Positions 10,213 through 49,457 of a stretch of DNA of 64,000 nucleotides are shown in pieces. How positions within the stretch are numbered: position 1 is the first letter of the stretch; each line of letters starts with the position of its first letter. Below the pieces are notes generated by a model. That model did not search any database. It worked only from the letters and a program-made list of their open reading frames with translations, and was not told the DNA's origin. The translations under genes were made by a program, and so were the position numbers. The stretch comes from Sediminispirochaeta smaragdinae DSM 11293. GTDB taxonomy: Bacteria; Spirochaetota; Spirochaetia; DSM-16054; Sediminispirochaetaceae. The stretch lies in assembly GCF_000143985.1 (NCBI RefSeq), contig NC_014364.1:2108001-2172000 (forward strand), written 5' to 3'.

Positions 10213-10304
10213 AGGTTCGTTCCGTATGCTTGATAATACCAGACTGTCTTATTCTTGAGTGTTCGCGGAAATAGGATATATTCGTTTTCTCTAAATCTTG
10301 CCAT
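10213..10304 (-). pseudogene. Integrase gene remnant (first ~28 codons)
   Basis: From ATG 10304 leftward the frame reads MARFRENEYILFPRTLKNK and continues TVWYYQAYGT. It differs from the start of the prophage integrase (48093-49334) at one residue, then diverges. The DNA upstream, up to the att copy, is also closely similar to 49335-49433. This is what remains of a second element's integrase; the catalytic domain is gone. Confidence 0.85.
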
Positions 10305-10395
10305 AATACCTCCATAGAGCAGGGCAGATATTGAGCCTATCCTGCTTACACTGGATGTATCATAGCTCTAAATACTTAATATATCAACATTTATC

Positions 10396-10419
10396 CATGG
10401 AGGTGGCGGGAATCGAACC
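10396..10419. repeat. Prophage left att site (24-bp core)
   Basis: Begins catggaggtggcgggaatcg and is identical over 24 bases to 49434-49457, the 3' end of tmRNA including part of the T-arm. It is shared by the prophage and by the remnant island on its left. Confidence 0.9.
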
Positions 10420-10939: not shown

Positions 10940-11793
10940 TAAATTGACCTTTCTTTTCTTTTATTATGAAACCTGATATCATTATAAATCAAGAAAAAGA
11001 CTGGTGAATTGGTCAAAAAAGTAGGAGAGATTTATGAAACGGATTATAACAGTAGTTCTTTGCCTTTTTGTTTTATTTCCTGCCGTTGCTTTCTCTGAGA
11101 ATGGAGATTTTATAGTCTACATCACAAAATCGGGCACGAAGTATCACCTTGATGGTTGTCCATCTCTCCGAAGTTCAAAAATACCAATAACACTATCGGA
11201 AGCAATAGCACAGGGCTATGAACCATGTAGCAGGTGCAATCCTCCCACGCTTGTAAGCACTGATAGCCAGTTAACAAGTACCATAGGCACATCGATTGAC
11301 CTTGAGGCTCTCGCACTTCCATACTGCAGGACTCCGGAGAATATAGTTCATCATACCGGTTATTCCCTTTTATACTCAGAGGAGAACGAGCAAGCGGTAT
11401 GGGTTGCCTATGTTTTGACAGCGGAGGAGGTCGCCGGGAATTTCGATCGAAATGACAATTTCAGGGCCGATTCTGATATCGTAACCGGTTCGGCCTCATT
11501 ATCCGATTATAAAGGTTCAGGATATGATCGAGGACATCTCGCCCCGGCCGCTGACCTTAAATGGTCCAGGGCATCGATGAACGACTCATTCTATCTATCA
11601 AACATGTCTCCTCAAGCTCCAGGCTTCAACCGAGGGGTATGGAAAAAGCTTGAGGAATGGGTTCGAGAGGAGGCCACAGCCGAGCGGGCCGTTTGCGTTG
11701 TTACCGGACCGATACTGACTGACGGACCGTATGAGACGATTGGAGGGAATGGTGTTACCGTACCTAAGAGGTACTACAAAGTCTTGCTTGATT

Positions 11794-13139
11794 GGTAGTG
11801 TCAATAAACTTGCGCAAATTCTTTTTGCCTCAATCTGAAGAATTTACTTATGAGACCTGATGTTCTTCCTGATCGTAATCAATCAGCAGGTCCATATTCA
11901 GATACTTCCGTTCACTCCATGAAGAACCTGAGATGTGACGCAGCCGGGCCGCGACCAGCATCAGGGCAGATTCTCCATCGGGGAATGAGCCGATTACTCG
12001 TGTCCTCCTTCTAATTTCTCGCATGATTCTTTCAAGACCATTGTTGGTCCTGATGCGCTTCCAGTGCTCCACCGGGAAATGATAGTACGAAAAGGTTTCG
12101 AGGGATCCTTCCCGCACCAGAGCCGCCGCTTTGTGAAGTTTCATATCCATGAGTTTCTGCGCAATGAGATCCTTTTTCCGGATTGCCTCTTCCTTGTTTT
12201 CCTGGGCATGAATTGCCTTCAGCATTGTGGCAACCTCTTTCACTTTGCCATGGGGAACAAAGCTGAACACATTCCGGTAGAAGTGGACGACACAGCGTTG
12301 CCAGCGTGCCTGGGGATAAAACTCCGGAATCGATTCGACTAACCCCAAAGATTTGTCGGAGATGAACATGTCGACACTCTCCAGGCCGCGTTCTTTGAGA
12401 TACCTCAAGAAGCGTTGCCAGCTGTCCTTATCTTCCTTAGTGCCCTCTGCAACCCCGATAATCTCCCGAAATCCATCCTGATTGACGCCTATAGCCACCA
12501 GAACCGACACATTCCTCACTTCTCCAGCCCAGGATCGCTTCATCCAGATCCCATCCAGATACACATAGCCATAGTGGCTCTCAAGCGGCAGGTTTCGCCA
12601 CTTCTCGATCTCTTCGTAGATCTTTTTATTCAGATTGCTGATCGTTCCCGGTGACACCTTTGCTCCCCACAGGGCTTCGGTGATATCTTCTACTCTCCGC
12701 ACCGACACTCCCGCTAAATACATTTCCACCATCGCTTCCTCTACGGAAATCTCCCGGCGCTTGTACCGTTCAATAATCGCCGTTTCGAAGGTTACCTTCT
12801 TCAGCTTGGGCATCTGAAGGGTTACTTCCCCCGCCTTGGTCAACAGCTTTCGGTTATAATGACCGGCACGATATCCCTTCCGATCTGTGTTTCTCTCATG
12901 CTTCTGGGCATTGACTAATTGCTCGGCTTCAGCTTCCAGCATGGCATTCAATGTTTCCTCTACCGTTTCCCGTACAAATTCCCCCAAATGGGCTTTGACT
13001 TCTTCCTCATTTATCTCGATAATCTTACCAGGCATTTGGTCCTCTCTCTGATGTGGTTTTGGTTGTACTTAATCAATCGTCAGATTGAGGACTTTCTTTT
13101 TACCAAATTTGGAATTTGCGCAAGATATTATACGTTATC
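11794..13139. mobile_element. IS256-family insertion sequence (1346 bp)
   Basis: Flanked by an exact 8-bp target duplication GCTTGATT (11786-11793 and 13140-13147). Imperfect terminal inverted repeats share CTTGCGCAAATTC (starting at 11810 on the left and, on the other strand, ending at 13123 on the right). It contains one transposase gene. The intact duplication and open transposase point to a recent insertion. Confidence 0.9.
11848..13035 (-). CDS. IS256-family transposase
   Basis: 395 residues, the usual length for the family. The catalytic DDE residues are seen in context: Asp in YVYLDGIW, Asp in DMFISDKSLGLVESI, and Glu in the NNGLERIMREIRRRTRVIGSFP motif typical of IS256 (MULE-like) enzymes. 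The N-terminus (MPGKIIEINEEEV) begins at ATG 13035 after a purine-rich AGAGAGGACCAA site. It lies opposite to the nuclease gene it interrupts. Cut-and-copy transposition through DNA circles is known for this family. Confidence 0.95.
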   Translation of the reverse strand: MPGKIIEINEEEVKAHLGEFVRETVEETLNAMLEAEAEQLVNAQKHERNTDRKGYRAGHYNRKLLTKAGEVTLQMPKLKKVTFETAIIERYKRREISVEEAMVEMYLAGVSVRRVEDITEALWGAKVSPGTISNLNKKIYEEIEKWRNLPLESHYGYVYLDGIWMKRSWAGEVRNVSVLVAIGVNQDGFREIIGVAEGTKEDKDSWQRFLRYLKERGLESVDMFISDKSLGLVESIPEFYPQARWQRCVVHFYRNVFSFVPHGKVKEVATMLKAIHAQENKEEAIRKKDLIAQKLMDMKLHKAAALVREGSLETFSYYHFPVEHWKRIRTNNGLERIMREIRRRTRVIGSFPDGESALMLVAARLRHISGSSWSERKYLNMDLLIDYDQEEHQVS

Positions 13140-13423
13140 GCTTGATTATGTTGAACCTGACCTCAAGGCCATAGGCTTTATTCTCCCGAATGAATCAAGC
13201 AGTGAGCCCCTTTCGGCTTTCGTTGTTTCTGTAGACCAGGTTGAAGCGGCAACCGGTCTTGATTTCTTCCCTTTGCTTGAAGACGGTATAGAAGAACAGC
13301 TTGAAAGTGATGCCATATTCTCACGATGGTAATTACCTTTCTGAGATGGCCGATATAAGTTCTTATTTATGCTCGCGCATATCGAAATGTGCGAGAGCAT
13401 TTAAGCACTACTTTCCTATGAGA

Positions 13424-15298
13424 TTAAGAACTTTTTCTATATCTTCCTTCATTTAGTTTTATGCTTAAAAGGTCATCATATTTACAATAATAATGATTGA
13501 AGAAATCTTTATATGTAATAAGTATTTTATCAGGAATAAGTGAGAGATCATAATTTTCAATGTAACCGATAATTTCAGGGTCTTCTTCCTTTATCTCCCT
13601 ATAGAGGGACCTCCAATTATCAGTCAACCCTTCTTTTTCAGCAATATCACGTAATAAAATATATGAATCTGGCATATGTAAAATCTCAAAGAATTCTGAA
13701 ATATTTTTTCCAAAAGCTCTTTCAAAAAATGATCGATTTCTTCCGACCTTTCCCTTTGTGGAATTCAAAATTAGCTGTATAGCACGTATGTATTTTCTAT
13801 TCCAGTTCTTTCCGATATATTTTCTAGTCTGATATAATTTTTGTTCATCATTGATTGGAGAATAACGCATTGGAAAAGAATATATAATTAAATCAAATTC
13901 TTCACATAATTTAATATTTAATTCTAATCGATTCCATAAATCTTCTGGTTTATCTTCAAAATTATATAAAAGATAATTAGATAGATTACGTATTTTATAT
14001 TTTGCAGATAACCTAATTGCATTGATATAAATATCTCGTAATGACCAATGATCAAAAGCAATTCGTAAGGGTTGGATAGCAATTTTCGAAAGTAGTCTCA
14101 TATTTTCTTCATTACATAATCTTGAATCAATACCTTGATTAAAGTCAACTGTCCTTTTTTTATAAGTTATTTTCCTAATATCAAAATTCCTATCGAGTTC
14201 TTCAAAGCATTGAATTAAAGAGAAAGAATTCGGAACGAAATTGTCGGTTTTAAAATATTTATCTAAGATATCCGAAGCAATTTTTTTATTTGAAAGATTT
14301 AATTGCTTTACGAAGTTTAATATTTCTTTCCAGAGAGCAACTGAATATTCAAAACTGTTAGTCCCTTTTTTAAGCAACAAATAAAAACTATATAGTTTAG
14401 TCTTCTGCTTTAATTTAGCACCACGAAAGAATCCTACTTCAATAATATCATTTATGATATCTTTAAAAAAAGGTGATGCTAGAACATTATTATCTAATAA
14501 AAGAAGCTTTCGACGAATATAATACTTACTATCTATCTCTTTGACAGTTTTTTTTATATCAATATATGAGACATAATCCGGTTCAATGATTGGTACAGCA
14601 CAGAATTTGCATTTTCGTATACAACCTCTAGTGGCATAGGTTATATAAGAGTCCCATTCAGGATAAGTATAAGATATTTGATGAAGAATGGAATAATCTG
14701 GAGTAACAAGGTCTATATTGTCATTAGTTGTTAAACCAATTCTTTTAGAATCAGTTAACAAACCATTTACTACCTGTACACCAGTTATATTTTCTATTTC
14801 TTCTGATAAAACAGAAGCCATTACACCACCAACAAACATATTGCTACTGTTCTTAATGTAAGGCTTTAATTCCTTTATAGAAGAAATAGTTATATCCCAG
14901 TAGAAAGTGAATAAAGTTGTAACATAAATTCTATCCCATTTCAGATCATCTATAATTTTATTTTTGCGAGCATCACGAAAAGCCTTTCTTAACCAACTTT
15001 CAATAGTTGGAAAGAAAAAACCAACATTATTTTCAATTGCCTCTAAGTATATCGTTCTACCAGTCTTTAGATAATAAAAGACATTATCCAATATTGTTTC
15101 CGGAATAATATCATTCTCAATTTTGGTAAATCTATCTACTAAATAGACAGAAAGTTGTTTTAAATAAACCTCTTTAATGTTACCTTTGACAAAGATAACT
15201 TCATCACCTAAAGTTTTATGATAAGAAGATAATTTCATTAACCCAAGTGGTGGGTATTTGTTTTTATATCTAGGTTCGTATAGAAGTATTCTTTTCAT
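13424..15298 (-). CDS. B12-binding-like radical SAM protein (fourth gene of NurA-HerA-GHKL operon)
   Basis: 624 residues. The N-terminus (KRILLYEPRYKNKYPPLGLMKLSSYH) looks like the B12-binding Rossmann domain placed before the core in many radical SAM enzymes. The core holds the Cys triad CIRKCKFC (CxxxCxxC, residues ~231-238) after YATRG, which binds the 4Fe-4S cluster that cleaves SAM. FNQGIDSRL and RIAFDHWSL are typical later strands of a TIM barrel. The C-terminal ~100 residues are unassigned. Its ATG overlaps the stop of the GHKL gene by 4 bases (ATGA), so the two are translationally coupled. What it modifies is unknown; a nucleic-acid or protein target of the partner genes is an inference. 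Strongly AT-rich. Confidence 0.8.
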   Translation of the reverse strand: MKRILLYEPRYKNKYPPLGLMKLSSYHKTLGDEVIFVKGNIKEVYLKQLSVYLVDRFTKIENDIIPETILDNVFYYLKTGRTIYLEAIENNVGFFFPTIESWLRKAFRDARKNKIIDDLKWDRIYVTTLFTFYWDITISSIKELKPYIKNSSNMFVGGVMASVLSEEIENITGVQVVNGLLTDSKRIGLTTNDNIDLVTPDYSILHQISYTYPEWDSYITYATRGCIRKCKFCAVPIIEPDYVSYIDIKKTVKEIDSKYYIRRKLLLLDNNVLASPFFKDIINDIIEVGFFRGAKLKQKTKLYSFYLLLKKGTNSFEYSVALWKEILNFVKQLNLSNKKIASDILDKYFKTDNFVPNSFSLIQCFEELDRNFDIRKITYKKRTVDFNQGIDSRLCNEENMRLLSKIAIQPLRIAFDHWSLRDIYINAIRLSAKYKIRNLSNYLLYNFEDKPEDLWNRLELNIKLCEEFDLIIYSFPMRYSPINDEQKLYQTRKYIGKNWNRKYIRAIQLILNSTKGKVGRNRSFFERAFGKNISEFFEILHMPDSYILLRDIAEKEGLTDNWRSLYREIKEEDPEIIGYIENYDLSLIPDKILITYKDFFNHYYCKYDDLLSIKLNEGRYRKSS

Positions 15299-16836
15299 TT
15301 TAGCTTCATTTTTATTGCAAAGATTAAATTTTCAGCCACATCGCTTGTCATCGTCTCATTTATTATAGCAAAAACTTTTGATAAAAGTTTCTTTTCTTTT
15401 CTATCTAATTTGCTTAGATCAGAGACAGCATATTTTTTCTTTTCGTGATTATCCTGGCTTTCATTAGTGATAATAGTATTAGTGCTAATTCGTGGCGGAT
15501 AAACTTTCTTAATGCCGTCTTTTACAATTTTTGAGCTAATTCGTTCTATTCTATGGTCAAGGTCATTTCTTTTCTTTTCTAATTCCTCATGTGTTTTAAC
15601 AAGAGCATCATATGATGACTCTTCATGCTTTTTGTTTATAAAACTATTTGTTTGTTTATTTTCATCGTATTTGCTCTTTTGTGCATTATAGTCTTCACTT
15701 GCATTATTCAGAGAATTAATGTCAGAAGCAAGTTTGCATAAGCTATTTAGGTCTTTAATGTATTTTCGAGTTTCTCGCATTAAAAATCGAAATTCTGGAG
15801 AATCTTCAAAGTAATTACGTTGTGCGTTAGGTATAATCGTATTCTCAAAAATATGTAACTCACCAATAAAATAATTAACAAACCTTTCTTGAGGCTCAAA
15901 TAGTTCTCTTAAAACATCGCTCCTTCCGATCTGAAAATTATTTTGCCTAAATTTAATACCTGGATAATTTAGTTTAGGAATTAGTTGTAGTTTTCTTGTC
16001 AACGCATACCAGCAGAAAGCAATAATTTTTGAATCGTTATATATGACAAAATGATTAATATCAACTATCTCATCATGTTTCTTTTTTTTGTTTGAAGCTA
16101 TTTTATATATGTCAGTACCATAATTTTTTTTGACTTCTTTCTTATTTACTATAATATAATATTCTTTTAATTTTAGATTATAGTTATCAAGGAAATTTCG
16201 TATTTTAGTTTTAAATACAAATTTTGAATCAAATTCAACTGGACAAACTTGAGAAATATATTCAATAACTTTTTGCTCTTCCAATAATTCCTGATTATTA
16301 ACATCACTCAAAATAACTTCGAAATAGTGTTTGTCCGTATCTTCTTTTTCTGTAAAAGACTCGGTAGTGTTATTTATAAGATCTATGGCCTCAATCATTT
16401 TATCAGCGCGTAAAGAATCACGTATCTTTTGAGCATCCCATCGCAAAATGGAAGCAGTATTTTCTCCATAATATGAGCTTTTCATAGTCAGGGTAGAACA
16501 ATAGGCTATGCCGGCGAGTCTTCCTATTCCACGAAATCCAATATTTGAATCAATCTTTTTAGTTGATGCAGCAATACTAGTCAGGGTCGAATAAAAAAGA
16601 CTACTTTTTAAACCAATTCCTGTATCATAAATTGAAATAGCTTTTTCTTGTTTTTTTATTTCTATATATATAGGATTGTTGATGTAATTGTCAAATATTC
16701 CTTTTATTTTACAAGCCTCAATTGCATCAACCGAATTTTGAATGTATTCTCTATAGATTATTATTGGATCTTGATACATACCTATCGTTAATACATCTAA
16801 TAAATGCTTTCCTATTTTTATCTCGTCTTTATCCAT
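15295..16836 (-). CDS. GHKL (Hsp90-like) ATPase
   Basis: 513 residues. The ATP-binding Bergerat fold is complete in the first 130: N-box YREYIQNSVDAIE, G1 box IYDTGIGL (DxGxG), and G2 box GFRGIGRLAG (GxxGxG). The middle resembles the transducer region of Hsp90/MutL-type ATPases (LQLIPKLNYPGIKFRQNNFQIG). Residues ~370-440 are charged and predicted coiled coil (EELEKKRNDLDHRIERISSKI). No kinase H-box is present, so it is not a histidine kinase. Such ATPases act as nucleotide-gated clamps or chaperones. It lies 12 bases after the HerA-like gene and overlaps the radical SAM gene. Confidence 0.8.
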   Translation of the reverse strand: MDKDEIKIGKHLLDVLTIGMYQDPIIIYREYIQNSVDAIEACKIKGIFDNYINNPIYIEIKKQEKAISIYDTGIGLKSSLFYSTLTSIAASTKKIDSNIGFRGIGRLAGIAYCSTLTMKSSYYGENTASILRWDAQKIRDSLRADKMIEAIDLINNTTESFTEKEDTDKHYFEVILSDVNNQELLEEQKVIEYISQVCPVEFDSKFVFKTKIRNFLDNYNLKLKEYYIIVNKKEVKKNYGTDIYKIASNKKKKHDEIVDINHFVIYNDSKIIAFCWYALTRKLQLIPKLNYPGIKFRQNNFQIGRSDVLRELFEPQERFVNYFIGELHIFENTIIPNAQRNYFEDSPEFRFLMRETRKYIKDLNSLCKLASDINSLNNASEDYNAQKSKYDENKQTNSFINKKHEESSYDALVKTHEELEKKRNDLDHRIERISSKIVKDGIKKVYPPRISTNTIITNESQDNHEKKKYAVSDLSKLDRKEKKLLSKVFAIINETMTSDVAENLIFAIKMKLK

Positions 16837-16848
16837 TCTTTTGGTCCT

Positions 16849-18519
16849 CTATTTATCAAATTGGTAGAAAAGTGGTTTGGGGAATTTAATCATCAAAGGA
16901 GAAGGAAAAATCGGATTTGTAATAATGTACTCGCCTTGAACCAATCTTGTCATAATATTCTTATATGTGGAATTGATAAAACTATAGTCTTTATTACTTA
17001 TTTCAATACTATTTGTTCTACCATAACAATTAGTTGAACAGTTTCCTTTTACACCAGCATTTATTGAACTTCGAAATTGCTCAGCACCGAATAATACTAA
17101 ACCTAACGATCTTCCCCTCTCTGTAATATCAAGAATATAACGAAGCAAAGGAGAGTTTTTTGGTACATTACTTCCTGCATGCTTATTAAGTTCATCTACA
17201 AAGATTATGATACGGTCAGGAAAATCTTCTTTTAAATCTACCCCTTCAAGTTTTGCTTCATAGATGTTTTTCAGAACATCACCAAAAACAAAAGATTGCA
17301 AAGTTTCATCTAATTTTGCAATATCAATTACATAAACATTATTTTTCTTTAATTCTCGTAAGGAATCACATAGATGAACCTCATTTTTTTCTTTAATTGC
17401 TCTATCAGAGAATAAAGGATTTTTTAATGGCTTTGATATTAGTCTTTTGTATTTTTTCCAACTACTAACCGCAATTTCCTTGTTACTTCTATTCTGCTGG
17501 CTCGAGACACAAAAATCACTAATTCGATCACGAAAATTGTCCCATGTGGAAATATTTGAGAATGGTCCATTATCATCAAGAATTAATTCATTAATTGATT
17601 CCATAGTCCTTGTTTGATCATCAAAATTCGCAAACAACAATTCTAAACTTTCTTTATCATCCTGAACTGTATATTTAAACGAATTATAAATCCCCTCATT
17701 CTTTTGATCGTTTATCAATTCATCAGTTGCATATGTATTTCTTATAATTGCGTTTGAATGGGGATAGAAATACTGAACATTTGAGAACGGTGTAGCATTG
17801 ATAGAAAGATCAGAATATAGATTTTTGTCAAAAATATCTAATGTTTTGTTTTCTCTATCAATACACAAGAGATCCTTTCCTTTTACATTAAAAACAATAA
17901 ATGCTATTGATTCATTGTCGGTATTAGTTCCTGATATATATTGGTCTTGCAATGACTTTAGTAGAAACATGCAATAGCTGGTTTTGGCAGCAAGCCCAGA
18001 AATTCCAGATATATTCAAATGAGCCCCTTCTGGTCCTATTAAAAACCTTCGGTCTAATTTAACTGGAATGAATTTTTTTTCTTTATCCATTTTTTCATAC
18101 ATTTCGATGTAGCCACAAGAAATTGGATACTTTATGTCATTAAGTCCTAATGCAAAAATAATATCATCTTCACTTGCTAAGAAAACTTTTGAACCGTCTA
18201 GAACAGGAAGATATATTCCTTTTGTATTTCTTAATACTTTGCACTTGACATAATTCATACTGAGTCGCTTGGTCAATAATTTAGCATCAGTATTGCCAAA
18301 ATCATTACTGACAAACGCGCCTAAATAATTAGGAGTGTCAGTAATATGAAAGACATCTTCTACTATACCATATGTAATACTGTCTTTCTGATTATCCACT
18401 CTTACAACATCAAAGGCTTGGAGCATAATATTTGTGTTCGTCCAAAACACAAATTCATCATTAGTACATGGTTGTTTCTCAGTGGCTGTAATTTTCCCAA
18501 TAGCAGTAGAAGTGTCCAT
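16849..18519 (-). CDS. HerA-like ATPase (DUF87 type)
   Basis: 556 residues. An N-terminal beta-barrel-like segment precedes the ATPase core. Features of the HerA/FtsK superfamily: FLIGPEGAHLNISG leading to the Walker A region GISGLAAKTSY; Walker B DRIIIFVDELNKHAG with the DE pair; and a late Arg-rich segment GRSLGLVLFGAEQFRSS like the sensor region of HerA. The Walker A is unusual: a strict GxxxxGKT would need Gly where this protein has Ala before Lys-Thr. HerA proteins form hexameric DNA translocases that pair with NurA. The NurA-like gene lies 13 bases upstream, which supports that partnership here. Confidence 0.8.
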   Translation of the reverse strand: MDTSTAIGKITATEKQPCTNDEFVFWTNTNIMLQAFDVVRVDNQKDSITYGIVEDVFHITDTPNYLGAFVSNDFGNTDAKLLTKRLSMNYVKCKVLRNTKGIYLPVLDGSKVFLASEDDIIFALGLNDIKYPISCGYIEMYEKMDKEKKFIPVKLDRRFLIGPEGAHLNISGISGLAAKTSYCMFLLKSLQDQYISGTNTDNESIAFIVFNVKGKDLLCIDRENKTLDIFDKNLYSDLSINATPFSNVQYFYPHSNAIIRNTYATDELINDQKNEGIYNSFKYTVQDDKESLELLFANFDDQTRTMESINELILDDNGPFSNISTWDNFRDRISDFCVSSQQNRSNKEIAVSSWKKYKRLISKPLKNPLFSDRAIKEKNEVHLCDSLRELKKNNVYVIDIAKLDETLQSFVFGDVLKNIYEAKLEGVDLKEDFPDRIIIFVDELNKHAGSNVPKNSPLLRYILDITERGRSLGLVLFGAEQFRSSINAGVKGNCSTNCYGRTNSIEISNKDYSFINSTYKNIMTRLVQGEYIITNPIFPSPLMIKFPKPLFYQFDK

Positions 18520-18532
18520 TATAATACCTCTA

Positions 18533-19723
18533 TTAAAAAATATTCATAAAATAATCATCAGAAATGAAAGTATTTTTAAGGAGCCTTTCTGTAAGATGGA
18601 CTGGATATAAATGATTGGGCCATCGGTCCTCAATACCATATGTAGTAGGTAATCTTTCATTGATTATATTTGCTGAGATCATATCTATTTCTTCTGAATC
18701 CATTAAATAATTCTCACCATCTTCTGGTACAACCTTCTCGATTTTTACAATACCGTCAAATGGATTATGGTTATAAGTCTTTTCACGGATTCTAATATAC
18801 CAAGTGATAAAGAAAACAGGCCCTTTAGCCCCTTTGGACCTTTTACTTTCGTATTTATATGAAGGCGTTCTATGATATAGTGGGAGGTCCGCAATTAAAG
18901 ATGCTTGTGTTTTTTTCCTGTTATCTTTTAAGAAATCGGGATTAAATGTTTTTGATACACCAATAACTCTTTTGTAATTATTTAATAGCAATGAGAAATC
19001 ATTAAAGTCTCCATTTTTCGAATCGATATATTCTATTGAGCCATCTTTTATTAAGTAATTATCAACATAACGAAGTCCATCATCATTTACTAATATGTTA
19101 ATCATTCTTTTTTCTTCATCAAGCATAAATTCATGTATTTTTGATATCCCTAAATTCTCGTATGGAATATCTTTTTGCAGATGCAAATCTTGATTATAAA
19201 GGAGTACTTTATTGATAACGATATTTTGTTTTTTTAGCGTTGAAGAATTATTTATTTGAGTTCTTAGATATTCTATCGCCGTTCTTTTATCTTTACAATC
19301 ATCGATCAAAGACACAATTGCAATATTAGGTAGTGCAATTACATTGTATCTATTTAACCTTTTACATTTTAAAATTCTTTTATTTCTTTCACAACAAGCA
19401 ACACCAACTTGTCCAGCAATTATTGGATAGATACTCTTTTCATATTCTATGCTTGTCAACTTGTAAGTCTTTCTAGAGCCATCAACAAAATATTTGAATA
19501 ATGATTCACCATCCCGGAGAAATTCTTTTTTCATTCTTGATCTTAAATCAATGGGATTTGTATAATCAATTTCTTCACCTAAGTTTCTTGTTGAGAATGG
19601 AATTTGCTCTTCTGATGAACTATGAAAAGCTATTGAATGTTCATCATTATAGCAGAATTTGTTTATATTATAGATTTTACCAATCGTCAGCTTTGCTATA
19701 ATAGAAAGCGCTCTATCTATCAT
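18533..19723 (-). CDS. NurA-like nuclease
   Basis: 396 residues, first gene of the operon. FKYFVDGSRKTY (residues ~77-88) matches the first catalytic Asp motif of NurA (xxDGS). A later acidic stretch (NILVNDDGLRYVDNYLIKDGSIEYID) and the C-terminal NHLYPVHLTERLLKN match the closing NurA pattern (HxYPxxLxE). NurA is a 5'-3' exonuclease and endonuclease that works with the HerA translocase in end resection; several anti-phage systems reuse such pairs. Assignment rests on motif and neighbour together. The ribosome site is weak (TTTTAAAA region). AT-rich like its partners. Confidence 0.7.
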   Translation of the reverse strand: MIDRALSIIAKLTIGKIYNINKFCYNDEHSIAFHSSSEEQIPFSTRNLGEEIDYTNPIDLRSRMKKEFLRDGESLFKYFVDGSRKTYKLTSIEYEKSIYPIIAGQVGVACCERNKRILKCKRLNRYNVIALPNIAIVSLIDDCKDKRTAIEYLRTQINNSSTLKKQNIVINKVLLYNQDLHLQKDIPYENLGISKIHEFMLDEEKRMINILVNDDGLRYVDNYLIKDGSIEYIDSKNGDFNDFSLLLNNYKRVIGVSKTFNPDFLKDNRKKTQASLIADLPLYHRTPSYKYESKRSKGAKGPVFFITWYIRIREKTYNHNPFDGIVKIEKVVPEDGENYLMDSEEIDMISANIINERLPTTYGIEDRWPNHLYPVHLTERLLKNTFISDDYFMNIF

Positions 19724-19925: not shown

Positions 19926-20267
19926 CTACGCCTCCCTCTTAATACTCTGTATAGATCGATCTGCTAGGCTGGAAGTCAATGCCTTCACCGTTTCTAAGTC
20001 CTTCTCGTCCAACATTTCCAAGTCAGCCACGATATTTGCATATCGCTTTGGCGGCTGCCAGTTATCCGGATTTTTGCCGGTTACCAGGTATTCTACGGTA
20101 GTATCCAACGATTGGGCAATTCTTACCCCATCATCAACACGCGGTAATCGTTTTCTTGCTATCCACCCTCGGAAAGTTTCAAAGCTAATATTCGAGTGAT
20201 TAGAAACCCATTCTTGAGTAGTATTTTGCCGCTTTATTTCTTTTTTGACTATGTCCCAAAATCCCAT
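19926..20267 (-). CDS. Phage repressor-like XRE-family HTH protein
   Basis: 113 residues from ATG 20267; upstream in-frame ATGs would run into the operator region. The N-terminal half holds an HTH: NTTQEWVSNHSNISFETFRGWIARKRLPRVDDGVRIAQSLDTTVEYLVTG is the standard XRE layout. No peptidase (LexA-type) domain is present; the C-terminal half is short and helical. Location (divergent from the early rightward genes, with three operator-like repeats between) makes it the lysogeny repressor. It is transcribed in the same direction as the NurA-HerA operon, so that operon can be expressed in the lysogen. Confidence 0.75.
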   Translation of the reverse strand: MGFWDIVKKEIKRQNTTQEWVSNHSNISFETFRGWIARKRLPRVDDGVRIAQSLDTTVEYLVTGKNPDNWQPPKRYANIVADLEMLDEKDLETVKALTSSLADRSIQSIKREA

Positions 20268-20289
20268 ACATCTATTATCGTCTAAAAAT

Positions 20290-20367
20290 GTTGTCAAATG
20301 ACGCATGTTTTTCTTGACAAAGTTGTTAAACGGCCATAATATGCAGTTATGAAAGTTGCTAAACGAC
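20290..20367. promoter_or_regulatory. Three operator-like repeats of the genetic switch
   Basis: A 13-base motif, GTTGTCAAATGAC, recurs as GTTGTTAAACGGC and GTTGCTAAACGAC at 20290-20302, 20322-20334 and 20355-20367. Start-to-start spacing is 32 and 33 bp, three helical turns. The first lies on the repressor side, the second between the -35 and -10 of the rightward promoter, and the third inside the first rightward gene. This is the arrangement expected of repressor binding sites. Confidence 0.6.
20314..20342 (+). promoter_or_regulatory. Rightward early promoter
   Basis: TTGACA (20314-20319), 17-base spacer, TAATAT (20337-20342): a near-consensus sigma-70 promoter. A start about 7 bases after the -10 falls on the A of the ATG at 20349, so the first early mRNA may be leaderless. 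The spacer contains the second operator-like repeat. Confidence 0.75.
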
Positions 20368-20567
20368 AACAAGATAGTCGTTACAAGGTGTCTATTCCAT
20401 TCAGCGAAGATGAGAGAAACAGATTTGTTACCTTCCTCGAATCTACCGGCCGAAAGGCTGGACCCTATCTAAAAATAGAAATGATGAACCGTGTAAGGGA
20501 ATGGGAAGCTATCCAGTCCGGCAAAACACAACTCAATACAAAGCCATTTGAGAAAGTAGGGGAGTAG
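20349..20567 (+). CDS. First early phage protein, possible Arc/RHH-type regulator
   Basis: 72 residues, basic N-terminus. RYKVSIPFSEDERNRFVTFLESTGRKAGPYLKIEMMNRVREW looks like a ribbon-helix-helix strand followed by helices, as in Arc/MobC-type small proteins, but I cannot confirm the family. Position opposite the repressor suggests a Cro-like or Arc-like role. It has no ribosome site, because the promoter -10 ends seven bases before the ATG. Confidence 0.55.
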   Translation: MKVAKRQQDSRYKVSIPFSEDERNRFVTFLESTGRKAGPYLKIEMMNRVREWEAIQSGKTQLNTKPFEKVGE

Positions 20568-21205: not shown

Positions 21206-21449
21206 CGTTCGTTTACGAGGGGTGAGTGAGGTTCGGTCTTTACTGGCCTGAACCTCAGATCAAGGATCTTTGAAAATCAATGACTTGTGGATAGGACCTT
21301 ATCTGCAAATCACGGGGTAGAGAAGGGAAAAAGAGCAGGTGAGGGCGTTGGTAGCACCCTCACTAATCCGCGTTCACACACAACGCAAATCACAGACAAA
21401 GCTGCTGCTCAATACATCATATCGGCAGCTTTATAGAGGAGATAAATCG
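21206..21449. other. Non-coding stretch before the Dam-type gene
   Basis: No convincing gene. A frame from 21339 extends into the methylase frame but lacks a ribosome site until 21436. No strong hairpin was noticed. Confidence 0.3.
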
Positions 21450-21836
21450 TTGAATAGTCCTATTTCGTACATCGGAGGAAAAAGCAAACTTGCGGATACT
21501 ATCATCAACTTTATCCCGGAACATCAAACCTATGTCGAGGTATTTGCCGGTGGTGCGTGGATATTCTTTAGAAAGAAGTATTCGAATGGGGAAGTGCTCA
21601 ACGATAAAGATGGCGATCTGGTATCTCTCTATCGGGTGATTCAGAACCACCTCGAGGAGTTTTTACGGCAGTTCAAATGGATATTGACCAGCCGCGAAGT
21701 CTTCGATGACTTCAAGGGCCAGATGGAAAAAACCGGCCTTACAGATATCCAGAGGGCCGCACGGTACTACTACTTACAGCGTTTGTGCTTTGGGGGGAGG
21801 GTACTAAACCGAGCTTTTGGCGTGGATTCCACCTAA
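21450..21836 (+). pseudogene. D12-class (Dam-type) DNA adenine methylase, C-terminally truncated
   Basis: The TTG at 21450 follows GAGGAG by eight bases and starts NSPISYIGGKSKLADTIINFIP; motif I (YVEVFAGGAWIFF, the FxGG SAM-binding loop) is intact. The frame runs through RYYYLQRLCFGGRV and stops at TAA after AFGVDST (21834-21836). Phage D12 methylases continue for over 100 residues with the catalytic DPPY motif, which is absent here and in the other frames downstream. The methylase is therefore probably inactive. The lost 3' half is replaced by the structured non-coding stretch and tRNA-like gene that follow. Confidence 0.75.
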
Positions 21837-22166
21837 GCGGGCGAGCAACGAAACCGGCGGAAGCGGTTAGAGAGACATTTCTGCATCAAGGCAGCTATGC
21901 CAGCCTGGCAAAAATAGCAACCAGTGAGTCTGCCGGAAGGCAGATGAGAGGATACGCAGTGAGCAACGTTACGTTGGGAGAGCCTGAAAAGGTCATAGGT
22001 TCGTCCGGTTGTCAAATCTCCAGATCGCTCACCTCCGGGCCAAACCGGACACTGGTTAAAGGCTGGATGGTTTCGCATCCCGTTCAAGACGGCCTTAATA
22101 AATGTCTACCAACGGGAAGAGTCTACGTCAGTAGCTACCGAGCGCCGGGGAATCGTGGCGCACCTT
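21837..22166 (+). ncRNA. Candidate structured non-coding RNA
   Basis: No frame gives a convincing protein, but self-complementary segments are dense: AACCG/CGGTT near 21851-21871; TCTGCC-GGAA-GGCAGA (21929-21944, tetraloop hairpin); CAACG-TTA-CGTTG near 21964; a long-range 8-bp perfect stem GTCCGGTT (22003-22010) with AACCGGAC (22043-22050); and TTAAAGGC/GGCCTTAA enclosing the next part. It runs directly into a tRNA-like gene. Large phage RNAs such as GOLLD and ROOL are known to sit beside tRNA genes, but I could not match this to either. Strand is assumed from the neighbours. Confidence 0.4.
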
Positions 22167-48063: not shown

Positions 48064-48116
48064 TTGACAAATGGCGATGCTTTGCCGGGGAGCTATGCCC
48101 CGGCTTTGCTTGTCAA
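48064..48116. repeat. Hairpin at the 3' end of the integrase gene
   Basis: GCCGGGG (48084-48090) and CCCCGGC (48098-48104) form a strong stem with the integrase stop codon in its loop, enclosed by TTGACAA (48064-48070) and TTGTCAA (48110-48116). No T-run follows on the integrase strand. It may act as a transcript end or be part of the altered third attC. Confidence 0.45.
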
Positions 48117-49334
48117 AAAGTTTTTCTGAGCTTCCGCGATTTGCCGTAAATCCTCCGGCAAATAATCGGTATAATGGTCGGTCATTTCCTGCGAGTCGTG
48201 TCCGGTGAATTTCCGTATCACATCGTCAGATACTCCGTTATGACGTAGCAGGGTATTGAAAAATCGCCGAGCTGAATGGAAAGTTATATTCCTTCCTTCT
48301 CGCTCTATTCCCATCTCGTCCATTCTCTTGTACATCCACTCTCGCAGCCGGTTCGCCGTGAGCGGTGTTTCTTGCCGCGGGTGATGCGAGAATACGAAGC
48401 GCTCAGGGCCTGTCATATAGCAATTAAGCTCTTCTCTCAGCTCTGGCATAATTGGGATTTCCCTTATACCTTTATCTTTCACCGGAGTTCGCTTTTTAAG
48501 CTTGCTGTGGTACTGCTTTGAGATTTGGAGATAAGAGAGTGTGACTGTTTTATCTCCCCGGACAATCTCAGAGTCAATCACATCATCGGTGAAAAGTCCG
48601 CATACTTCGCCGATTCGCAAGCCAGCCATAAAAGCAACTTTCATCGCTGTATAGTAGATTCGATCTTTGTCGCTTGATATTCCCGAGTCTTCGAGAAGCT
48701 TTTCCACTTCATCTATACTCAAGGCTCCGTATCTATTCTTGTCGACCGATAAAGGCCTGACCATGCGCCAGGGATTGAAATATGCCGCTGTCGTGTCCCG
48801 CATCTTCTGGATCCGTTCGTACTCTCCAAGGATGGTTGAGTAGACGCTTTTCCAGTTGTTCGCTGTTTTATGACTCACCTGGTTAGCCCACTTGAACAGA
48901 AGGTCCTCGCAGTCCAGCGGGGTGATTTTCTCAATCGGTTTGTCTCCGTGGTATGGAAGGATATGGTCTCTGGTTATCTGGGTAGCTCCGTTGCAGTAGT
49001 TCTCTGTTATCCCTGGTTTTTCTTTCGAAGAGCGGGCGAGAATTGCCCGGACGTAGCTACTACGCCTATAATCCCAGAAGTACCGACTCTCTACCCATTG
49101 GGCAAGAGTTACGACCTTTTCCTTTGAAAGGCGGTTTTTCTCAAGTAGCTCCTGACAGTAAGCAACTGCTTCTTTGCGGCTTTTGACTTCATCTTTCTTT
49201 CGTGTGTAGCCAATCCCGGTGCTTTTCGCCGGTAGACGCTTGCCGTCAGTTCCGTATGCTTGATAATACCAGACTGTCTTGTTCTTGAGTGTTCGTGGAA
49301 ACAGGATGTATTCGTTGTCTCTAAATCTTGCCAT
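48093..49334 (-). CDS. int: Prophage tyrosine integrase
   Basis: 413 residues, ATG 49334 preceded by GGAGG. An N-terminal arm-binding-like segment (EYILFPRTLKNKTVWYYQAYGTDGKRLPAKSTGIGYTRKKDE), core-binding helices, then the catalytic domain: Arg in AGLRIGEVCGL, HSARR (HxxR) around residue 348, GHDSQEMTDHYTDYLPEDL with the His and the nucleophilic Tyr. It reads away from the att site, with its start 100 bases from the tmRNA 3' end, the normal place for tmRNA-specific integrases. It is a phage integrase and lacks the extra helix motif of integron IntI enzymes. Confidence 0.95.
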   Translation of the reverse strand: MARFRDNEYILFPRTLKNKTVWYYQAYGTDGKRLPAKSTGIGYTRKKDEVKSRKEAVAYCQELLEKNRLSKEKVVTLAQWVESRYFWDYRRSSYVRAILARSSKEKPGITENYCNGATQITRDHILPYHGDKPIEKITPLDCEDLLFKWANQVSHKTANNWKSVYSTILGEYERIQKMRDTTAAYFNPWRMVRPLSVDKNRYGALSIDEVEKLLEDSGISSDKDRIYYTAMKVAFMAGLRIGEVCGLFTDDVIDSEIVRGDKTVTLSYLQISKQYHSKLKKRTPVKDKGIREIPIMPELREELNCYMTGPERFVFSHHPRQETPLTANRLREWMYKRMDEMGIEREGRNITFHSARRFFNTLLRHNGVSDDVIRKFTGHDSQEMTDHYTDYLPEDLRQIAEAQKNFLTSKAGA

Positions 49335-49433: not shown

Positions 49434-49457
49434 CATGGAGGTGGCGGGAATCGAACC
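49434..49457. repeat. Prophage right att site, at the tmRNA 3' end
   Basis: 24 bases identical to 10396-10419. It covers the acceptor 3' strand and part of the T-arm of tmRNA, so integration restores an intact tmRNA gene. Confidence 0.9.

Follow-up and report, generated by a model that had tools for sequence, protein, structure and literature searches.

A prophage-borne operon of a NurA-like nuclease, a HerA-like motor, a GHKL ATPase and a radical SAM protein as a candidate mobile anti-invader system

A four-gene operon in Sediminispirochaeta smaragdinae

The window analysed here is a stretch of 64,000 nucleotides from Sediminispirochaeta smaragdinae DSM 11293 (contig NC_014364.1, positions 2,108,001 to 2,172,000). 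Inside a prophage, it carries four genes that encode a NurA-like nuclease, a HerA-like DNA motor, a GHKL ATPase and a B12-binding-type radical SAM protein. We propose, with a probability of roughly 60%, that they constitute a mobile operon directed against phages or plasmids, in which NurA-HerA degrades, the GHKL protein licenses, and the radical SAM protein decides what is spared. A defence function as such is more probable still and has good support in the genomic context. The genes are, in operon order:

18533-19723, minus strand: NurA-like nuclease, 396 residues, first gene (fold match of the AlphaFold model and conserved motifs)
16849-18519, minus strand: HerA-like hexameric DNA motor, 556 residues (profile match to Deinococcus radiodurans HerA)
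15295-16836, minus strand: GHKL ATPase with an Hsp90-like N domain and a C-terminal region of its own, 513 residues (profiles and motifs)
13424-15298, minus strand: B12-binding-type radical SAM protein, 624 residues (its first 4 bases are also the last 4 of the GHKL gene)

The four leftward open reading frames (13424-19723) all lie on the minus strand and none is broken. The distances from nuclease to motor to GHKL to radical SAM gene are 13, 12 and -4 bases, as given in a preliminary description of this DNA. The AT-richness that it reported is also found: the GC contents are 0.30, 0.31, 0.29 and 0.28 in operon order, whereas the phage genes between 24 and 44 kb have 0.54.

Family assignment of the four proteins

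The AlphaFold model of the nuclease (predicted local distance difference test score, pLDDT, 87.7; 50 relatives) was compared with the PDB by Foldseek. It matches two NurA structures, 7f6d_G (5.9e-13) and 2ygk_A (1.9e-7), and no other structure below 0.001. The motifs D81-G-S-R, D227-G, E329, E356 and R367-W do not vary among the 50 relatives, except for single substitutions of the serine. By analogy, D81, D227, E329 and E356 are probably the catalytic acidic residues. The protein matches no Pfam family, NurA (PF09376) included, at E <= 1, which is a detection threshold and not a biological definition; the label 'NurA-like' is used for this reason.

The family profile of the motor matches D. 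radiodurans HerA (drHerA, 7f6d_B) at 2e-49. Residues K179 and T180 align with the experimentally essential Walker A residues K175 and T176 of drHerA, and D442 and E443 align with its Walker B residues D487 and E488. The Walker A and Walker B residues of the motor are invariant in 61 relatives, and its Walker A sequence, GISGLAAKTS, is unusual. The PADLOC HerA model matches the motor as well (7e-5). The Pfam HAS-barrel match at the N-terminus is weak (0.14), but the family profile does span the N-terminal region of drHerA. We rejected an assignment to MADS (mad8), as this is a weak generic HerA match and mad8 also matched random control genes.

The third protein matches NCBIfam Hsp90 (2.6e-12), and its profile matches the N domains of Hsp90 and TRAP1 (2e-9). 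The motifs E30/N34, D71-x-x-x-G75 and GFRGIGR are kept in 60-61 of 61 relatives. The Hsp90 matches end at about residue 134, with no demonstrable Hsp90 middle or C-terminal domain, and the protein is therefore classed with the GHKL ATPases and not called Hsp90. It has no PADLOC match, and a search of IMG/VR with this protein alone gave no match.

The fourth protein matches Pfam Radical_SAM (3e-4) and phrog_9298 (8e-44), and the cluster cysteines C226, C230 and C233 of its CxxxCxxC motif are invariant in 56 relatives. Its model (pLDDT 91.7) matches MgmA (9ccb, 2.8e-8) and TsrM (6wte, 1.6e-7), and also MiaB and AprD4. The MgmA and TsrM fold matches show an N-terminal Rossmann domain of the B12-binding type, and a short paralogue of the protein matches Pfam B12-binding (4.2e-5). 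MiaB and AprD4 belong to the same fold class, and domains of the B12-binding type need not bind B12. A viperin-like enzyme was considered and rejected, because the fold matches are B12-type enzymes and MiaB; a profile match to histamine N-methyltransferase (0.013) was taken as chance.

The family assignments of all four proteins are thus supported. The preliminary description had named a NurA-like nuclease, a HerA-like translocase, an Hsp90/GHKL-type ATPase and a B12-binding-like radical SAM protein, and these names hold by structure comparison, by the profile match to Deinococcus HerA, by profile and motifs, and by motif and fold, respectively. Among the family checks that it proposed, those for GHKL and radical SAM succeed with profiles and motifs, the one with PF09376 fails, and NurA and HerA are recovered through structure and the drHerA profile. 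Pfam at its own cut-offs mostly misses the proteins (it has no match to the nuclease, and its matches to the other three are weak). Across 50-61 relatives, all four proteins retain their catalytic motifs with almost no change, and therefore selection maintains the set as an active system.

The four genes form a conserved and mobile unit

Relatives were collected with a radical SAM alignment, which worked for the search; the patterns from an alignment of two HerA sequences were poor. The radical SAM search yielded 433 relatives among 84,980 species genomes, and the best 80 loci (numbered with L) were read. NurA-HerA-GHKL precedes the radical SAM gene in 53 of the 57 loci with at least 7 kb upstream; since the loci read are the 80 nearest among the 433, this proportion describes the operon's own branch, not the whole family. 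The GHKL and radical SAM genes share the 4-base overlap in 28 of 51 loci. Carriers of the four-gene set include Bacillota, Bacteroidota, Synergistota, Desulfobacterota, Kiritimatiellota, one archaeon and others, and the same gene order occurs in a faecal phage contig (L005) and two IMG/VR viral contigs (L022 and L023). The four genes are a real unit, as their recurrence in dozens of loci is far beyond chance. The preliminary description would have been refuted by a failure to find the four together elsewhere and by their never lying near mobile or defence genes; they do recur together, in neighbourhoods of this kind.

The archaeal copy groups with those of Bacillota and Synergistota with full support. 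Within the phylum of Sediminispirochaeta, 4 of 393 genomes have a radical SAM match, the source genome included, and a genome of the same genus has none. The patchy spread, the carriage by phages and the cross-domain copy are typical of a mobile accessory system.

The distance correlations among the four proteins in mirror-tree comparisons (r 0.70-0.95) are higher than in every permutation. The GHKL tree tracks those of NurA (r 0.93) and HerA (r 0.92), and the partial correlation of GHKL with NurA given HerA is 0.49. The radical SAM tree is looser (r 0.73-0.83; partial correlation with GHKL given HerA, -0.13), consistent with a substrate that is not part of the protein complex.

This pattern bears on a different arrangement, an infection-triggered switch, in which the GHKL protein would sense a phage component or altered DNA and activate NurA-HerA, so that infected cells stop or die; the radical SAM enzyme would make a signal or a toxic small molecule, or modify a partner protein. 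The tight co-evolution of GHKL with NurA and HerA and the looser radical SAM tree would be expected of it, and GHKL proteins occur in other defence systems: a second GHKL protein found in relatives of the operon (see below) has weak PADLOC matches to MzaB and TmtA. However, by its fold matches the radical SAM protein is not viperin-like, and the window has no toxin-like domain. We regard the switch as doubtful.

The operon lies at a prophage cargo site

Four further features place the operon in a prophage:

10396-10419, no strand: attL, left copy of the transfer-messenger RNA (tmRNA) 3' end (exact repeat of 49434-49457)
49434-49457, no strand: attR, at the tmRNA 3' end (exact repeat of 10396-10419)
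48093-49334, minus strand: tyrosine-recombinase-like integrase, 413 residues, abutting attR (family assigned by reading the sequence, not by a profile scan)
19926-20372, minus strand: CI-type phage repressor, adjacent to the operon on its upstream side (Pfam Phage_CI_repr, 7.7e-5)

The prophage ends in an exact 24-bp direct repeat, CATGGAGGTGGCGGGAATCGAACC, and the operon lies inside it because the att repeats and the integrase bound the region around the operon. The operon is flanked on one side by an IS256-type insertion within a DNA/RNA non-specific endonuclease gene and on the other by the CI-type repressor gene. With the att repeats, integrase and repressor found, the placement in the preliminary description, in a prophage between a broken nuclease gene and the repressor, is borne out.

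The S. smaragdinae genome contains three related prophages, the sister prophages B, C and D. The window prophage and prophage B share 88.7% DNA identity up to position 19978, in the 3' part of the repressor gene, past which their cargo differs. Prophage D has, at the matching site behind the repressor and in the same orientation, an AbiJ-like gene (1.5e-11) together with a DUF262 gene that matches NsnA (1.5e-29) and PD-T4-2 (4.5e-20); the GC content there falls to 26%. Prophages B and C have small unrelated genes at the cargo site. The AbiJ-like and DUF262 genes occupy the matching place in D, and therefore the operon stands at a cargo site, one used for defence genes in a sister prophage. The cargo site claimed earlier, which would be expressed in lysogens, is thus supported by position and by differing cargo, and the cargo of prophage D is the strongest evidence for a defence role of the operon. 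In addition, the neighbours of relatives in other genomes include Lamassu LmuB (1.4e-215), PDC-S06 (3.2e-195), AbiEii, RhuM, AlbA_2, integrases and relaxases.

The cargo stretch of prophage D (L167:10413-15705, G000:C1) also holds several unrecognised AT-rich genes and is a candidate separate defence locus.

The prophage location would also suit a module that serves the phage itself, for example in host DNA degradation or in the lytic programme. Consistent with this, the cultured temperate phage Marinitoga camini virus 1 (L134, 7384-11210) carries NurA-HerA and, next to it but on the other strand, a short radical SAM homologue; no GHKL gene accompanies them. Most copies, however, are found outside recognised phages, and the operon shares the side and strand of the repressor, opposite the lytic genes. 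A phage-serving role is very unlikely.

The operon could alternatively be DNA-end repair or recombination cargo that aids the host or the phage and blocks no invader. NurA-HerA, a HerA ring with a NurA dimer, resects DNA ends in D. radiodurans and in archaea (PMC9960219), and HerA-SbcCD clusters occur on plasmids. However, the distribution of the operon is patchy and accessory, no Mre11/Rad50-like gene recurs with the four-gene set, defence genes occupy the same cargo site in the sister prophage, and GHKL and radical SAM proteins are not part of known end resection. We consider repair unlikely.

Related loci exchange their partner genes

Closely related Bacteroidota operons vary in the genes inserted between GHKL and radical SAM. 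In L053 and L056, NsnB/NsnC-like Menshen genes and a second GHKL gene (GHKL2) lie between them; NsnB-like (4.9e-65 in L053, 6249-8466) and NsnC-like (4.3e-11) inserts also occur in L062, L067 and L068, and no NsnA-like gene was noticed in these five operons. In L052 (7340-10004) and L055, the insert consists of GHKL2 and a protein of about 330 residues that has no Pfam or PADLOC match. L052 and L056 have near-identical HerA proteins and different inserts. The pair of GHKL2 and the 330-residue protein also accompanies the radical SAM gene without NurA-HerA in L066 (7326-9992) and, in the opposite orientation, in L064 and L122.

A second branch, on alphaproteobacterial plasmids, has radical SAM-GHKL only, without NurA-HerA (L002, L003, L004, L006, L138, L139 and L140). 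A DGQHR gene stands immediately before radical SAM-GHKL in all seven of these loci; the one scanned (L002) is DpdB/DndB-like. A pair of PIN-like and GHKL2 genes is present in six of the seven, and a DEAD/DEAH helicase in five, DpdE/ZorD-like in the single one scanned (L138). In L006, L138 and L139, the DGQHR gene follows immediately on the helicase and a ParB-like gene, and the module order changes. These plasmid loci are likely a distinct defence or DNA-modification system.

DndB-like genes also occur in three NurA-HerA loci (L050, L100 and L141). In L141 (4312-12502; G374, same phylum), NurA, HerA, a small membrane-like protein, a DndB-like protein, GHKL and radical SAM are encoded in a single run, which connects the NurA-HerA branch with the DndB/DpdB-like plasmid branch. 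Radical SAM-GHKL is kept while partners swap, and therefore the invariant core is radical SAM-GHKL with exchangeable DNA-handling partners.

These partners bear on an alternative that resembles restriction-modification: radical SAM and GHKL, with a DndB/DpdB-like protein in some relatives, would mark a base or the backbone of host DNA, and NurA-HerA would destroy unmarked DNA. The DGQHR genes and helicases of the plasmid loci, the DndB-like genes of the three NurA-HerA loci and the exchange of partners around a constant core, as in Dnd, would all fit, as would the presence of the tRNA-modifying MiaB among the nearest folds. However, the window has neither a DndB-like gene nor a site-recognition subunit, NurA-HerA starts from DNA ends and not from unmarked sites, most of the nearest radical SAM folds act on proteins or small molecules, and we know of no B12 radical SAM enzyme that modifies DNA. 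We hold this reading to be possible, and no better than tentative. Its most specific form is speculative: the B12-type radical SAM enzyme, handled by GHKL and sometimes by a DndB/DpdB-like protein, would write a previously unknown DNA mark that shields the host from NurA-HerA, and the same core would also be coupled to PIN-nuclease/helicase modules in the alphaproteobacterial plasmids.

Proposed mechanism of the anti-invader operon

In the mechanism we favour, that of a mobile anti-invader operon, the HerA ring would, by analogy with characterised complexes, thread DNA ends into the NurA dimer, which would degrade the DNA. The GHKL ATPase may bind NurA-HerA and, as an ATP-driven clamp, license the machine upon sensing of an invader; its co-evolution and the gene order suggest this step. 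The radical SAM enzyme may act on DNA or a nucleotide, as its chemistry and the recurring DndB/DpdB-like partner suggest; it would either mark host DNA or convert a cue derived from the invader, and thereby set what the nuclease spares. This last step is the least certain and is our inference, and the recurring partner favours DNA or nucleotide chemistry for it. The preliminary description had proposed DNA sensing and degradation gated by GHKL, with a modification made or checked by the radical SAM protein; the DndB/DpdB-like partners fit the modification without proving it, and the model as a whole remains a proposal.

Several observations weigh against the anti-invader reading. The best 80 of the 433 loci are biased to close relatives, and many copies stand single among housekeeping genes. 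PADLOC family counts are 195 for the operon neighbours versus 131 for 121 random genes in genomes of the same phylum, and therefore the defence-island enrichment is weak by that crude count. Classical NurA-HerA has been described as a DNA repair machine. In addition, plasmids of Streptomyces, Chlorohelix and Aulosira (L135-L137) carry a related HerA with SbcD/SbcC-like genes; the Aulosira partners are annotated just as exonuclease and hypothetical protein.

Comparison with known systems

Pfam, NCBIfam and PADLOC 2023 do not recognise the four-gene set as a system. Text searches of the literature, which covered work outside subscription papers and preprints, returned no description of it, so that a prior mention is possible. 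The view in the preliminary description that no named system joins the four genes agrees with PADLOC 2023 and with the literature searched.

The operon shares with the D. radiodurans complex (7f6d) the NurA fold, the HerA type with a GISGxAxKTS Walker A motif and the pairing of nuclease and motor. The Deinococcus structural and resection study concerns NurA and HerA only, as a repair complex (PMC9960219), whereas the NurA-HerA of the operon is fixed with GHKL and radical SAM genes, accessory and mobile. Complexes of HerA with nucleases act in defence, and HerA-NurA of T. kodakarensis has been argued to destroy viral DNA and not to resect ends (PMC12977600). Sir2-HerA and DUF4297-HerA likewise combine a HerA ring with an effector (nuclease or NADase) for defence; the operon differs in having NurA as effector and GHKL and radical SAM in addition, and no Pfam or PADLOC match to Sir2 or DUF4297 was found among its four proteins. 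HerA/FtsK capture systems are the subject of a further paper (PMC10853773), in which NurA, GHKL and Hsp90 go unmentioned.

The links to Dpd and Dnd lie in relatives: DpdB-like and DpdE-like genes in the plasmid branch and DndB-like genes in three NurA-HerA loci. However, no TGT (DpdA), DndCDE or DndFGH was found, the sole candidate for a modifier is the radical SAM protein, and the four window proteins have no PADLOC match to Dpd/Dnd modification genes. Menshen (NsnABC) is represented by the NsnB/NsnC-like inserts of some Bacteroidota copies and by the NsnA-like gene in the cargo of prophage D; none of the NsnA, NsnB and NsnC models matches the four window proteins. MZA and Tiamat use GHKL ATPases in defence, but their other genes differ from those of the operon. 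Prokaryotic viperins are radical SAM enzymes in defence, but of another fold class than the operon protein (MgmA, TsrM, AprD4, MiaB).

HerA-nuclease machines are a growing class of bacterial immunity, and HerA-NurA has lately been proposed to be antiviral and not a repair machine. If the defence role is true, the operon would represent a widespread HerA-NurA system, spanning many phyla and both domains, that escapes present defence finders. No immune system is known to combine an Hsp90-like GHKL ATPase with a B12-type radical SAM enzyme, and the target of the latter could reveal new DNA or nucleotide chemistry. The operon also makes it testable whether accessory NurA-HerA pairs are weapons.

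Other features of the prophage

Scans for promoters and terminators gave background level only. Within 11034-13400, the IS256/Mutator-family transposase gene at 11848-13035 splits the DNA/RNA non-specific endonuclease gene, the remainder of which apparently resumes past the insertion. Just left of attL, positions 10288-10395 are a degenerate copy of the stretch between the integrase start and the tmRNA, which suggests that this tmRNA site was used by an earlier integration or by one in tandem. A Dam-like methylase frame (21339-21836) stops early, and two sister prophages share a 48-nt stretch there (21822-21869) with about 90% conservation.

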